From: Phycisphaerae bacterium
Lineage (GTDB): Bacteria; Planctomycetota; Phycisphaerae; Sedimentisphaerales; Anaerobacaceae
Direction of reading: 5' to 3'
DNA: 40,008 bases
NCBI GenBank assembly: GCA_017993835.1
Contig: JAGOLX010000056.1
Coordinates: forward strand, 1 to 40,008
In this document: piece by piece, positions 1,687-8,465 of the stretch
Layout of the letters: every line of letters starts with the position of its first letter
Position numbering within the stretch: the first letter of the stretch is position 1
Translations under genes and position numbers: made by a program
The notes under the pieces: model-generated
Databases searched by the model: none
Told to the model about the DNA's origin: nothing
The model's input: the letters and a program-made list of their open reading frames with translations, nothing else

Positions 1687-2075
1687 CAGGGGTCGTTTTC
1701 CGACAGATCCCGTTGCCCGTGTTAGAGAATACGTAGTTCTACGTATGGAATCGCCCTGCCGCGATGGGTATAATAGAGGCATTGTCAGCGGTCCGGAATC
1801 GGAGGTTCTCTGCTCCCTTATTGCCGCTGGCTGTTTCCACACCGAGCCGCTGTTCACGCCAGGCTCTCAGATCGGGAGGTGAGTTGTGCATGCCACGCGC
1901 AGATTCCGGGGGATGGTCGGGATCGGGCCGCACTCGCCACGGGACGACTCACAACCGCAGATGAACGCGGATGAACGCAGTCGGGCATCGGGCCGCAGCC
2001 AGGATCGACTCACGCAGAGACGCAGGGGTAGGGTGGGCTGTGCCCACCGTTCACCAAACAAATCGGAGGCAGAAC
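1687..2075. other. 389-bp intergenic region with dyad, possible promoter and hairpin
   Basis: No convincing gene here. It holds a perfect 16-bp dyad (1730-1745), a TATAAT box (1769-1774), a stretch reading like the common GATGAACGCGGATGAACGC intergenic repeat (about 1961-1979), and a perfect 7-bp stem GGTGGGC/GCCCACC at 2032-2048, 27 nt before the next start codon. A 24-codon open frame begins at ATG 1890 behind GGGAGG (1874-1879), but nothing else supports it as a gene. Confidence 0.6.
1730..1774 (+). promoter_or_regulatory. operator-like dyad followed by sigma70-like -10 box
   Basis: TACGTAG-TT-CTACGTA (1730-1745) is a perfect 7-bp inverted repeat with a 2-nt centre, as expected for a dimeric helix-turn-helix regulator site. 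Right after it lies a weak -35 (TGGAAT, 1746-1751), a 17-nt spacer and a perfect TATAAT (1769-1774). This would drive the GLUG-repeat gene with a leader of about 295 nt. The regulator is not identifiable from the window. The weak -35 directly next to the dyad would fit an activator. Confidence 0.45.
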
Positions 2076-4739
2076 ATGGTCACTCCAAGCAGATCCCAGG
2101 CGTATGGTGCAGCAGTGTTCCTCTTCTTGGTTATCGTCTCGACCGCCCACGCCAAATACAGCGGCGGGACGGGTGAGCCGAATGACCCGTACCAGATCGC
2201 CACGGCTGCCGATCTGATCGCCCTCGGCGAGACGCCGGAAGACTACGACAAGCACTTCCTCCTGACCGCCGACATCGACCTGGACCCCAACCTCCCCGGC
2301 CGTAAGGTCTTCGATAAGGCGGTTATTGCGCCGGACATCGATCCTGTGAAGGCTGGCTCCCAGGGGACTCCATTCACTGGCGTCTTCGATGGAAACGGCC
2401 ACGTGATCTCGCACTTGACGATTACGGGTGGAAGTTATCTGGGATTATTTGGGCAATTGCAGCCCCCGAGCCAAATCGAGAACCTAGGGGTAGTGGCAAC
2501 CAACATAGGTGGCTCGGACTATATCGGCGGGCTGGTGGGCTTTTGTGAACCGTCTTGGGGCGGGATCACTTGGTGCGGGATCAGCATCACCCGTTGCCAC
2601 AGCAGCGGCTCGGTCAGCGGCAGTACGTCCGTAGGTGGACTCGCGGGCGAAAGCTATCGCGACATCAGTTCGAGCTACAGCGCCGCCTCGGTCAATGGGA
2701 CCCAGCGGATCGGCGGCCTGGTAGGTCACAACTGCGCTGCGATCACCGCGAGTTACAGCATTGGCCAGGTCAGTGGAGGGGAAGATGTGGGCGGCTTGGT
2801 CGGCCGCAATCTTTCTTTCCATCCCGCGTTTTCGTTTCGCCGCCCCCACGGCAGCATCGCCACAAGCTACAGCAGTAGTACGGTCAGCGGCGATAGGTCT
2901 GTCGGAGGCCTCGTGGGGTACAACAGCTCGTATGCCAGGATCCGCAATTGCCACAGCAGCGGCTCGGTCAGCGGCAGTACGGGCGTAGGTGGACTCGCGG
3001 GCCTCAGCTCTGGCGACATCAGTTCGAGCTACAGCACCGGCTCGGTCAGCGGGACTGGCGACTATGTTGGCGCTCTCGTGGGATACGCCGAGTGGGGTAG
3101 CATCAGCTTGAGCTTCTGGGACATACAGACCTCAGGCCAGATCACCAGTGCTGGCGGCACGGGCAAGACCACAGTCGAGATGCAGAGCGCCCCGACATTC
3201 CTCGATGCCGGGTGGGACTTTGTGAACGAGACGGCTAATGGCACGGAGGATATTTGGAAGATCGCGGAGGGTTTGGGGTATCCGCGTCTGGCGTGGGAGA
3301 AATACAGCGGCGGGACGGGGGAGCCGAACGATCCGTACCAGATCGCCACAGCCGCCGATCTGATCGCCCTCGGCGAGACCCCCGAAGACTACGACAAGCA
3401 CTTCATCCTGACCGCCGACATCGACCTGGACCCCAACCTCCCCGGCCGCAAGGTCTTCGACAAGGCCGTTATCGCGCCGGATACAAATGACACCGAAGCC
3501 GGCTTTCAGGGGACCGCCTTTACCGGCGTCTTCGATGGCAACGGGCACACGATTCCGCATTTGACAATCAAAGGCGGCAGTTGCCTGGGCCTGTTTGGCT
3601 GTTTGCGATCCGGGGCCGAGGTCAAGGATGTAGGTGTTGTGGACGTTAACGTGACGGGTGTGGGTCATTTGGTCGGCGGGCTGGCAGGATATAACGTCTC
3701 GGGTGCCGTAGTAACCCACTGCTACTGTACTGGTACTGTGGGCGGCAATTCCCATGTTGGTGGGCTGGCGAGCTGTAACGGCAAATCCTCACCGCCCGCT
3801 GCGATCACGCGCTGCTACAGTGCGGCTGTGGTTACGGGCATCTCGAATGTTGGTGGTCTGGTGGGCTACAATAGCGTTTATGTGTCTCAATCATGTAGCA
3901 CAGGTGTGGTGTATGGTGTGTCCAACGTCGGCGGTCTCATTGGGGCCAACGGATGGGGCATGCGCTACACTGGGCATGTAAGCGAGTGCTACAGCACGTG
4001 TACAGTCAACGGCAATGAGTGCATCGGCGGGCTCGTGGGTACGAACCGTGGTTCAGTGACTCGCTGCTACGGCACAGGTTCGGTCATTGGGGTTCGGTGG
4101 GTCGGAGGGATAGTGGGGCTGAGCTATGGGCCTGTGAGCGAGTCCTACAGCACCGGTGAGGTCAAGGGCAGTTTGGATGTCGGCGGGCTGGTCGGGGCGA
4201 ACACCAAGACCACGTGGGGTAGCGAAGGGACTGTGGCCGCTTGTTTCTGGGACATCCAGACCTCAGGCCAAGCCACGAACGATGGAGGCACCGGGAAGAC
4301 CACAGCCGAGATGCAAACGGCCAAGACCTTCCTTGATGCCGGGTGGGACTTCGTCGATGAGACGGCCAACGGCACGGATGACATCTGGTGGATCGATGAA
4401 GGGTTGGATTATCCCCGCCTCTGGTGGGAACCGTATGATGGACGGGTCACGGTTGCGCTGGGCCAGGTATTTACCGTCACACTCGAATCGAATCCCAGCA
4501 CGGGGTATCGATGGGAATGGGTGGATCACCAGGACTCCATCGTGGAGCAGATGGGCGAGGCACGGTTCAAGCCACGCGCGACAGGCGATCCGCCCCTTGG
4601 CGGGGCCGGCGGGTGGGAAAGCTTTGATTTCAAGGCGGTCCATCCAGGGCAGATGACTCTCAAGCTCGTCTATCGCAGGCCATGGGAAGAAGGTGTGGAG
4701 CCGCTGAAGACCCTCTCGCTCCAAGTCACAGTACCTTAG
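2076..4739 (+). CDS. secreted GLUG-repeat protein with C-terminal chagasin-type (I42) inhibitor domain
   Basis: The ATG at 2076 is chosen over one 105 nt upstream because CGGAGG lies just before it and it gives a clean signal peptide (AVFLFLVIVSTAHA); 887 residues. The protein is two copies of one module. Each starts with a 'YSGGTGEPNDPYQ...DIDLDPNLPG' header (nt 2154-2335 and 3300-3481), followed by about seven GLUG-type units (IGGLVGF, VGGLVGY and so on) and closed by SFWDIQTSGQ and GWDFV.ETANGT segments. GLUG repeats occur in surface adhesins and peptidase-related proteins. The last ~100 residues differ: NPSTGY (N806), GAGGWESF and RRPWE match the three conserved loops of chagasin, inhibitors of papain-like cysteine proteases. 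The likely role is a surface or exported protein that binds something and may block cysteine proteases; inhibition is inferred from the loops only. Confidence 0.85.
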   Translation: MVTPSRSQAYGAAVFLFLVIVSTAHAKYSGGTGEPNDPYQIATAADLIALGETPEDYDKHFLLTADIDLDPNLPGRKVFDKAVIAPDIDPVKAGSQGTPFTGVFDGNGHVISHLTITGGSYLGLFGQLQPPSQIENLGVVATNIGGSDYIGGLVGFCEPSWGGITWCGISITRCHSSGSVSGSTSVGGLAGESYRDISSSYSAASVNGTQRIGGLVGHNCAAITASYSIGQVSGGEDVGGLVGRNLSFHPAFSFRRPHGSIATSYSSSTVSGDRSVGGLVGYNSSYARIRNCHSSGSVSGSTGVGGLAGLSSGDISSSYSTGSVSGTGDYVGALVGYAEWGSISLSFWDIQTSGQITSAGGTGKTTVEMQSAPTFLDAGWDFVNETANGTEDIWKIAEGLGYPRLAWEKYSGGTGEPNDPYQIATAADLIALGETPEDYDKHFILTADIDLDPNLPGRKVFDKAVIAPDTNDTEAGFQGTAFTGVFDGNGHTIPHLTIKGGSCLGLFGCLRSGAEVKDVGVVDVNVTGVGHLVGGLAGYNVSGAVVTHCYCTGTVGGNSHVGGLASCNGKSSPPAAITRCYSAAVVTGISNVGGLVGYNSVYVSQSCSTGVVYGVSNVGGLIGANGWGMRYTGHVSECYSTCTVNGNECIGGLVGTNRGSVTRCYGTGSVIGVRWVGGIVGLSYGPVSESYSTGEVKGSLDVGGLVGANTKTTWGSEGTVAACFWDIQTSGQATNDGGTGKTTAEMQTAKTFLDAGWDFVDETANGTDDIWWIDEGLDYPRLWWEPYDGRVTVALGQVFTVTLESNPSTGYRWEWVDHQDSIVEQMGEARFKPRATGDPPLGGAGGWESFDFKAVHPGQMTLKLVYRRPWEEGVEPLKTLSLQVTVP
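2154..2335 (+). repeat. module-header direct repeat, copy 1
   Basis: A 182-bp stretch encoding the GLUG module header. It is nearly identical at base level to 3300-3481 in the same gene and in the same frame, so the two halves of the protein arose by duplication or gene conversion. Confidence 0.85.
2594..2648 (+). repeat. 55-bp direct repeat within the first GLUG array (partner 2948-3002)
   Basis: The 55 bases from 2594 recur at 2948-3002 with very few changes, encoding CHSSGSVSGST.VGGLAG. This is a recent local duplication of one GLUG unit inside the first half of the gene. Confidence 0.75.
3300..3481 (+). repeat. module-header direct repeat, copy 2
   Basis: Second copy of the 182-bp header repeat, in frame. 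The differences from copy 1 are mostly silent third-position changes (for example FLLTAD versus FILTAD at protein level), which suggests the header is under constraint while the GLUG units between the copies have diverged. Confidence 0.85.
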
Positions 4740-5069
4740 GCCGACTTGACTCTAATGAGTTCTGACGCGCAAAATCGGCAATCGAACCGTGTGGTAGTGT
4801 GGCACCCCCGCCCTCGGGGGTGATCCCAGCGATCCCAGCCGGGGGCGGCTGGGCTACATTCCTGTCGGCTCAAGGAACTCCGAGCCGGTCGCGCGAAGTT
4901 CGCCAGAGCGGTGGTATACGCTACAGAAATCGTCTGTCGAAACTCATTAGGCGAGCCGGTGGATGGCGCTGACGTGGGTCCGTCTTACATTTCGATTTCC
5001 ACTGTGGTGGCAATTGGAGAAAGCCACGCCATGACAACATGTGACGACGATTGATGGGAGGTACATTCG
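4740..5069. other. 330-bp intergenic region with two adjacent GC-rich hairpins
   Basis: No gene seen. Two perfect stems lie side by side: CACCCCCG-CCCT-CGGGGGTG (4803-4822) and CCCAGCC-GGGGGC-GGCTGGG (4834-4853). Neither has a T-tract, so they are not typical terminators; they could be REP-like elements or stabilise the 3' end of the GLUG transcript. Near the right end GGGAGG precedes the next ATG at optimal spacing. Confidence 0.6.
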
Positions 5070-7229: not shown

Positions 7230-8465
7230 ATGTTCGAAAGAACGAAGAAGGACATCGAGTTGCTTCGGGCCAGCCTTCAGGGCAGCTCGAAGGCGTTCGG
7301 GGTCCTGGTAGGCCGGTATCAATCCCTGGTATGTGCCATTACCTATAGTGCCACCGGCAGTGTGGAACGGAGCGAGGAGCTGGCTCAGGAGGTCTTTCTC
7401 CGGGCGTGGCGGAGCCTGAGCCAGCTCCAGGACTTGAACAAGTTCCGGGCCTGGCTGTGCAGCATTGCCCGGAGCACCGTGCAGAACTGGTTCCGCGACC
7501 GCCATCGCGATGTAATAGGACGGGCGGCTCCCCTCGACGCCGTCGCAGACACGCCGTCGGAGGAATCCGGACCTGAGGAGACAGCCATGATCCAGGAGCA
7601 GAAAGCCATCGTTCAACGAGCGCTGGCGGAGATCCCCGAGTCCCTGCGCGAGCCTTTGATTCTATTCTATCGCGAGCAGAAGTCCATTGAAGAGGTGGCC
7701 CGCCAGTTCGATCTGACGGAGAATGCCGCCCGGCAGCGGATCTGCCGCGGGCGCAGCATGCTGCGTGAGCAGGTGGCCCGCATGGTGGAAACGACGATCG
7801 CTCGCACCCGCCCGGGCAAGGCCTTCACGACGGCGGTGATCGTGTGCATCGCCGGCACAGCGTGCAAGAGTTCCGCGGCGGTCGCGGTCGTGGGAGCGGC
7901 CTCCGCGGCGGGCAAATCGGCCGGCCTCGCTTCGCTGCTGTCGGGCACCACCGCGAAAATCGCGGCCATCGCGGCCGGCCTGGCGCTCGTTACGGCGGGC
8001 TTCCTTGCCTACCGCCAGTTTGTCAAGTCGCCAGAGCCGGAAGGCGCAGACCTCGCGACGGCAACCATCTCAGGGCAGTCTCTCACAGAAGCTCACCCCA
8101 GCGTGCAGTTGGCGGCAATTGGTGCCATGCCGGGCGCGAAGCCGGATCCAATCACTCCGAGTGCACCTGCATCGTTCGAGTTCAGAGCCAGGGGAGTGCT
8201 CAGTGGCCTGGTCACCGATATTCAGACGGGAGCGCCGATCCAGGATGCCATCGTGCGGATTTCACTGTCGCGCGTCTACCGTTGCCGCACAGACGCCAAC
8301 GGTTTCTACGGCATCGAGAGCATCCCCCAAGGTGGCGTTGCCAAGGTGACGGTCGAGTCGAAGGAATACGTCGGAGCGTCGGCCCAGGACCAGACGCGGA
8401 AGGTTCCTTTGAGTCCCGACAGACAAGCAGTGCAACACTTCCAGATGCGGCGGGGCCGCCCATGA
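7230..8465 (+). CDS. ECF sigma factor with membrane segment and C-terminal beta-sandwich (carboxypeptidase regulatory-like) domain
   Basis: 411 residues. Residues ~1-185 are a full ECF sigma: region 2 (AFGVLVGRYQSLVCAI, EELAQEVFLRAWRSL, FRAWLCSIARSTVQNWFRD) and region 4 (ALAEIPESLREPLILFYREQKSIEEVARQF, AARQRICRGRSMLREQ). An Ala/Gly-rich hydrophobic stretch (197-239) and a clear membrane-spanning segment (AKIAAIAAGLALVTAGFLAY, ~240-260) follow. After a Pro/Ala linker comes a domain with GVLSGLVTDIQTGAPIQDAIVRI and TDANGFYGIESIP, the signature of CnaB/carboxypeptidase regulatory-like sandwiches. In planctomycetes such extended ECFs are known as a type; here the tail would face the periplasm and could sense a signal directly, with no separate anti-sigma gene visible nearby. 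The secreted subtilase starts 39 nt downstream, so the two are probably co-transcribed. Confidence 0.88.
   Translation: MFERTKKDIELLRASLQGSSKAFGVLVGRYQSLVCAITYSATGSVERSEELAQEVFLRAWRSLSQLQDLNKFRAWLCSIARSTVQNWFRDRHRDVIGRAAPLDAVADTPSEESGPEETAMIQEQKAIVQRALAEIPESLREPLILFYREQKSIEEVARQFDLTENAARQRICRGRSMLREQVARMVETTIARTRPGKAFTTAVIVCIAGTACKSSAAVAVVGAASAAGKSAGLASLLSGTTAKIAAIAAGLALVTAGFLAYRQFVKSPEPEGADLATATISGQSLTEAHPSVQLAAIGAMPGAKPDPITPSAPASFEFRARGVLSGLVTDIQTGAPIQDAIVRISLSRVYRCRTDANGFYGIESIPQGGVAKVTVESKEYVGASAQDQTRKVPLSPDRQAVQHFQMRRGRP

Follow-up and report, generated by a model that had tools for sequence, protein, structure and literature searches.

A chagasin-family (I42) inhibitor domain at the C-terminus of a planctomycete GLUG-repeat protein and its recurrence on unrelated carriers

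The GLUG-I42 gene and its predicted protein

The DNA analysed here (the window, 40,008 nucleotides) is contig C50 of G000, a 6.37-Mb planctomycete assembly whose closest named relatives are Phycisphaerae/Sedimentisphaerales MAGs. Pfam profile searches of the ORF at 1971–4739 on the forward strand detected GLUG repeats followed by a C-terminal I42 domain. The likely start codon is the ATG at 2076, rather than the first ATG at 1971 where the ORF opens, because a Shine-Dalgarno-like GGAGG (2065–2069) lies ahead of it and a signal-peptide-like stretch follows, giving a fusion gene of 2076–4739. This N-terminus, MVTPSRSQAYGAAVFLFLVIVSTAHA (2076–2153), as read from the sequence, suggests that the protein is exported. 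It is followed by two GLUG modules (2154–4430) of predicted beta-solenoid-like structure, recognized from the GLUG profile PF07581 (E=3e-25 in eight stretches, above the family cut-off), an internal repeat (3170–3298 vs 4301–4429) and a structural model. Both modules open with KYSGGTGEPNDPYQIATAADL and close with YPRLxWE. The I42 (chagasin-family) domain and the stop codon occupy 4437–4739, as judged from the PF09394 profile, PDB sequence matches, the predicted fold and DNA sharing. An NCBIfam scan of the protein gave no match. Elsewhere in the window, positions 7230–8465 encode a sigma factor of the ECF type (Sigma70_r2, r4_2), in which a putative membrane segment precedes a C-terminal carboxypeptidase-regulatory-like domain (PF13620, E=3e-9).

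When the whole protein was searched, PF09394 (Inhibitor_I42) matched residues 828–919 (E=2e-21), and the segment 4437–4736 searched alone gave a match over profile positions 2–91 of 91 (E=4e-23; 82 bits, cut-off 27.2). This was the HMM check that the earlier note had proposed for its assignment of the domain to I42. Searches of the PDB with phmmer retrieved the Pseudomonas aeruginosa ICP (2wgn, 2e-15), amoebiasin-2 (4e-10), and other ICPs together with chagasin (5e-9 to 1e-6), so that by sequence the I42 match is far above chance. The AlphaFold (AF2) model of the domain alone, built with 35 related domains aligned, had a mean pLDDT of 91.5, and the best 13 Foldseek matches of this model in the PDB were all I42 members (TM-score 0.67–0.83 on the query), indicating a predicted Ig-like beta fold of the chagasin type. 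Profile, PDB matches and predicted fold thus all uphold the I42 assignment. The fusion to GLUG repeats described in the same note was likewise recovered, with both profiles matching in one ORF; since GLUG-I42 proteins are also encoded in independent genomes (L148, L149), the fusion is not an assembly accident and is unlikely to be an artefact.

The three inhibitory loops lie where motifs had been reported in the earlier note: L2 (NPSTGY) at 4491–4508, L4 (GAGG) at 4602–4613 and L6 (RPW) at 4677–4685, all on the forward strand and located by sequence and alignment. All three are intact when compared with the family pattern NP[ST]TG(Y/F), GxGG and RPW. Among the 12 aligned fusion-clade sequences, N-P-x-T-G-Y, G-x-x-G and R-x-W were kept in every one, and the loop positions were more conserved than the rest of the domain (mean 0.92 vs 0.81, one-sided p=0.003, indicative because the rows are related). 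Several carriers of the PD40, GDSL, SGL and unassigned types have R-S-W or R-A-W in L6 instead of R-P-W. In chagasin, the T31S change, which corresponds to the serine of NPSTGY in the window, barely altered the Ki on cruzipain (11 vs 7.6 pM), while deletion of T31-T32 abolished tight binding and W93A caused a ~100-fold loss on cathepsin L (PMC2607524).

In the model of the last 282 residues, short strands of the beta-solenoid type are followed by a low-confidence joint (pLDDT 39–55 around residues 155–181) and then by the I42 fold. The joint is probably a flexible tether. The earlier picture of an inhibitor at the tip of a repeat stalk is compatible with this model, although a model is no proof of it.

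Copies, remnants and carriers of the domain

Six I42 matches were detected in G000. One is that of the window, and the other five lie in tandem within one ORF of about 513 aa that has a signal-like start (C12:57484-59022, equivalent to L007:9485-11023). The five tandem domains fall in a clade separate from that of the window domain. Related two- or multi-copy forms were seen in G005 and in G008, where they are joined to an FGE-sulfatase domain (L152).

The ends of 21 GLUG ORFs were read in G000, and in nearly all of them the stop is only a few codons away from YPRLxWE; the other ends are two dockerin-like, one thioredoxin-like and one I42, that of the window. The thioredoxin-reading C-terminus, with a WCSHC motif, was seen on a 923-aa GLUG-type ORF (L173, minus strand of G000:C104:75500-82500). 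At two further loci (C62 and C17) I42 sequence is present only as a remnant after the GLUG stop, behind a palindromic repeat, and both remnants have one common internal deletion of 126 bp. Similar fragments occur in G003, G006 and G008. The cassette thus also decays in the genus of the window, and because two of the three GLUG-I42 loci in G000 are cut-off remnants, it is not essential there.

The ends of GLUG genes appear to be a hot spot for insertions. Palindromic repeats of the form CACGAATGACACGAATCAC...GTGATTCGTGTCATTCGTGG are found either on both sides of a GxxExxY (TIGR04256-like) gene or by themselves (L139:1100-2600 on G003 C113, L136, L137, and G000:C4:15692-16033). They have cut into I42 remnants, and one GxxExxY gene of G000 lies directly 3' of a GLUG gene. 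Because many copies break at window positions 4489 and 4754, a mobile element bounded sharply by these two points was suspected, an idea that was dropped once the copies had been read: the break at 4489 is where the palindromic repeat (CACGAATGACACGAATCAC...) or the GxxExxY element cuts into sister I42 copies. Positions 4752–4950, outside the protein, are taken up by a dispersed repeat of 199 bp whose termini are 15-bp inverted repeats (CTAATGAGTTCTGAC / GTCGAAACTCATTAG). It starts 12 bp after the I42 stop and is separate from the I42 tract; it has another copy at G000:C34:72662-72860, and pieces of it occur in G005 and G006. The G003 loci read ...GACTCTATAGGCGAGCC... without this repeat, as an unoccupied site would.

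For the wider distribution, 148 relatives were sampled, and their I42 ORFs were read and then scanned with Pfam. I42 was present in 23 of the 148; as many of these genomes are fragmented MAGs, the numbers are lower bounds and some contigs may have been misbinned. Within the planctomycete family the same I42 subfamily is found at the C-terminal end of six or more unrelated types of carrier, spread over at least nine genera codes. These comprise GLUG proteins (G074, G065 and, in truncated form, G005), PD40 propellers (G025, G034, G064, G074, G077), several of which include a dockerin-like segment, a GDSL esterase with a dockerin-like segment (G035), an SMP-30/SGL protein (G035), LamG/beta-helix proteins (beta-helix plus LamG in G074, a beta-helix fragment in G072) and one unassigned protein (G064). 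The dockerin-like segments are weak matches (E about 0.001–0.004, below cut-offs). Similar fusions, for which the earlier note had advised a search in other planctomycetes, were thus found repeatedly. Its statement that these inhibitors are normally small, stand-alone proteins holds for most bacteria, as I42 ORFs outside the planctomycetes are mostly ~125–180 aa and many are lipoprotein-like at the start (scan of named genomes), but in the Phycisphaerae fusions are recurrent. The family also holds stand-alone I42 lipoproteins.

In the wider class, I42 was found in 69 of 397 genomes, many of the domains lying in long ORFs with other architectures. One such ORF (L203:1654-4158, G398 contig C261) joins I42 to a full serpin (E=7e-111), with a sub-threshold Kazal-like stretch (E=0.002) between them, and its product is possibly a multi-class protease inhibitor. 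In L208 an I42 domain is fused to an esterase. Two others (L212:1807-2820 in G273 and L213:675-1682 in G320) carry a divergent I42 at the C-terminus (E about 1e-8), behind an IrrE/ImmA-like M78 peptidase domain, and seem to lack a signal peptide.

Exchange of the I42 tract between gene ends

In the maximum-likelihood tree, all C-terminal-fusion I42 domains of the planctomycete family form one clade (96/94), nested in a weaker group (86/79) whose other members are mostly Chloroflexota I42s. At the DNA level, unrelated carriers within each of G074, G064 and G035 share sequence only over the I42 domain plus stop codon. The shared DNA runs from about -20 nt (+14 in one pair) to between +4 and +22 nt past the last sense codon: -20 to 13 nt for L155 vs L150 (83%), +14 to +22 for L149 vs L155 (89%), -21 to +4 for L156 vs L157, and -20 to +16 for L158 vs L044.

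Synonymous divergence between the window gene and L148 was 0.26 over the I42 tract and 1.05 over the preceding 60 GLUG codons, as expected if the I42 tract had been exchanged later than the GLUG part, although codon selection could contribute to this difference. A second GLUG tail was found after the I42 stop at two G003 loci and also in L155, the LamG carrier of G074, where AGRDIWWILEGQDYPRLWWE lies immediately 3' of the stop. The presence of a GLUG tail behind a LamG carrier suggests that a GLUG gene was the source from which this cassette was copied. The best topology of the DNA tree had seven carrier changes, which are not taken as a count of events because most of its forks are weak. Judged from these sequence comparisons, I42 behaves as an exchangeable 3'-end cassette, consisting of the domain and its stop codon, in this planctomycete family. 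Over the domain dN/dS was 0.08–0.39 (fusion-clade pairs with at least 72% nucleotide identity), indicating purifying selection on the fusion-clade domains.

Proposed function and comparison with known systems

The explanation that we consider probable is that the window encodes an exported GLUG protein bearing a working-type I42 inhibitor of foreign papain-like peptidases, reused as a 3'-terminal cassette. The C-terminal domain would inhibit cysteine peptidases of the papain type (clan CA, family C1A) in the manner of chagasin, with loops L2, L4 and L6 entering the active-site cleft and plugging it. The peptidases would most likely be foreign, from eukaryotic grazers or other microbes, and we infer that they are met outside the cell, so that inhibition would protect the secreted or surface protein or the surrounding matrix. 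The I42 tract would be copied, as domain plus stop, from the end of one secreted-protein gene to that of another, unrelated one. A more specific form of this idea, which we put forward tentatively, is that a portable C-terminal shield of ~300 bp (I42 plus stop) is copied by recombination between 3' ends, tagging whichever exposed protein is attacked by the papain-like proteases of grazers or competitors.

The foreign target is made more likely by the lack of any papain-family (PF00112) match above threshold in G000, an assembly that is about 99% complete, in a search that gave matches in three control genomes; the classical pairing of I42 with a C1A peptidase in the same genome is therefore not seen in G000. 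It is also inferred from the precedent of Cip1, a secreted chagasin-like protein of P. syringae, which inhibits papain (Ki 3.98 nM) and the plant proteases C14 and Pip1, C1A peptidases being absent from most Pseudomonas (PMC5014320). The earlier note's suggestion of surface defence against papain-like proteases would gain indirect support from the lack of C1 matches in G000, from the conserved inhibitory loops and from the I42-serpin fusion in G398. Among the 148 relatives, I42 and C1 presence was uncorrelated (4/23 vs 20/125, p=1), which neither supports nor excludes a foreign target. The alternative of a role like that of chagasin in trypanosomes, in which I42 would control a papain-family peptidase of the bacterium itself, is disfavoured by both of these searches, and we regard it as very improbable. 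A case in its favour comes from G086, where the gene for a C1A peptidase is followed by a small ORF and then by the gene for a divergent stand-alone I42 (L164:3566-5462, contig C158), a candidate endogenous peptidase-inhibitor operon; with the C1A gene two genes upstream of I42, the classical pairing does exist in the lineage.

The domain could instead have been recruited as an Ig-like module of general use in binding, anchoring or sorting, with inhibition no longer selected. Such a role would fit the invariably C-terminal position of the fusion-clade domain on carriers otherwise without common features, in the manner of known sorting and anchoring domains, its place after a dockerin-like segment (those weak, sub-threshold matches) in several carriers, and the loss of the L6 proline in some. 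We nevertheless hold it to be unlikely, as the best-conserved part of the domain is formed by the inhibitory loop residues, the stand-alone lipoproteins of the same family have no cargo to sort, tandem or N-terminal I42 fusions are known (L007, L152, L203, L208), and one to three I42 proteins per genome are too few for a general sorting tag. A search for the T9SS translocon SprA (SprA_N) gave no match, but none in any control genome either, and so has no weight for or against such a role. Less probable still is that the cassette is mainly hitch-hiking repeat DNA, spread by recombination of GLUG tails and dispersed repeats at gene ends and without present function in G000. The remnants at C62 and C17, split off by the palindromic repeat, and the like fragments in three other genomes are what this would predict, and the second GLUG tails in G003 and on the LamG carrier fit it as well. 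It is countered by dN/dS values well below 1 across genera and carriers, by the presence of the domain on different carriers in so many genera, and by the window copy itself, whose reading frame, loops and predicted fold are all intact.

If the shield reading is true, bacteria tag attacked, exposed proteins with a reusable anti-protease module. The planctomycete lineage offers a natural test of whether I42 domains shield secreted proteins from foreign proteases, since it repeatedly adds them to the ends of different exported proteins, and no papain-family peptidase is detectable in G000 itself. It also provides a clear bacterial case of domain shuffling that can be traced in DNA, with homology that stops at the domain and stop codon. 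Few roles have been demonstrated for bacterial chagasin-family inhibitors, according to the authors of the Cip1 study (PMC5014320). No description of GLUG-I42 proteins, or of a recurrent exchangeable C-terminal I42 cassette, was found in the literature searched, a weak negative given its incomplete coverage. A bacterial I42 fusion as such is already known, and what is apparently unreported is the recurrent C-terminal cassette on unrelated secreted proteins.

Chagasin and the ICPs (MEROPS I42, PF09394; T. cruzi chagasin, 2wgn and amoebiasin-2, 3m86) resemble the window domain in having a complete domain, an Ig-like fold (predicted for the window) and the three loops, at 26–35% identity to the solved members, but are stand-alone proteins of ~110–130 aa, while the window I42, a putative inhibitor, is the C-terminal domain of a large repeat protein. 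Cip1 is likewise bacterial, is exported, as predicted for the window protein, has the same three motifs and comes from a lineage mostly without C1A peptidases; it differs in being a small stand-alone protein, for which inhibition of papain and of plant immune proteases has been demonstrated. The stefin-chagasin protein of Bacteroides fragilis (CAH07101) is also a bacterial I42 fusion, reported as a single case (PMC2784779). Its I42 partner is another cysteine-protease inhibitor, whereas the partners in the window family are GLUG and other unrelated carriers, with I42 recurrently at the C-terminus. The closest non-planctomycete relatives are three Chloroflexota lipoproteins (L045, L048, L049; 54–57% identity, same tree group), which consist of a lipoprotein-type signal and I42 only and, unlike the window gene, have no carrier. 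Promiscuous C-terminal modules that sort or anchor secreted bacterial proteins include dockerin, the T9SS CTD and PEP-CTERM. The I42 cassette is like these in being one type of C-terminal domain on unrelated secreted proteins, and differs from them in retaining the loops of a protease inhibitor and in being rare within each genome.
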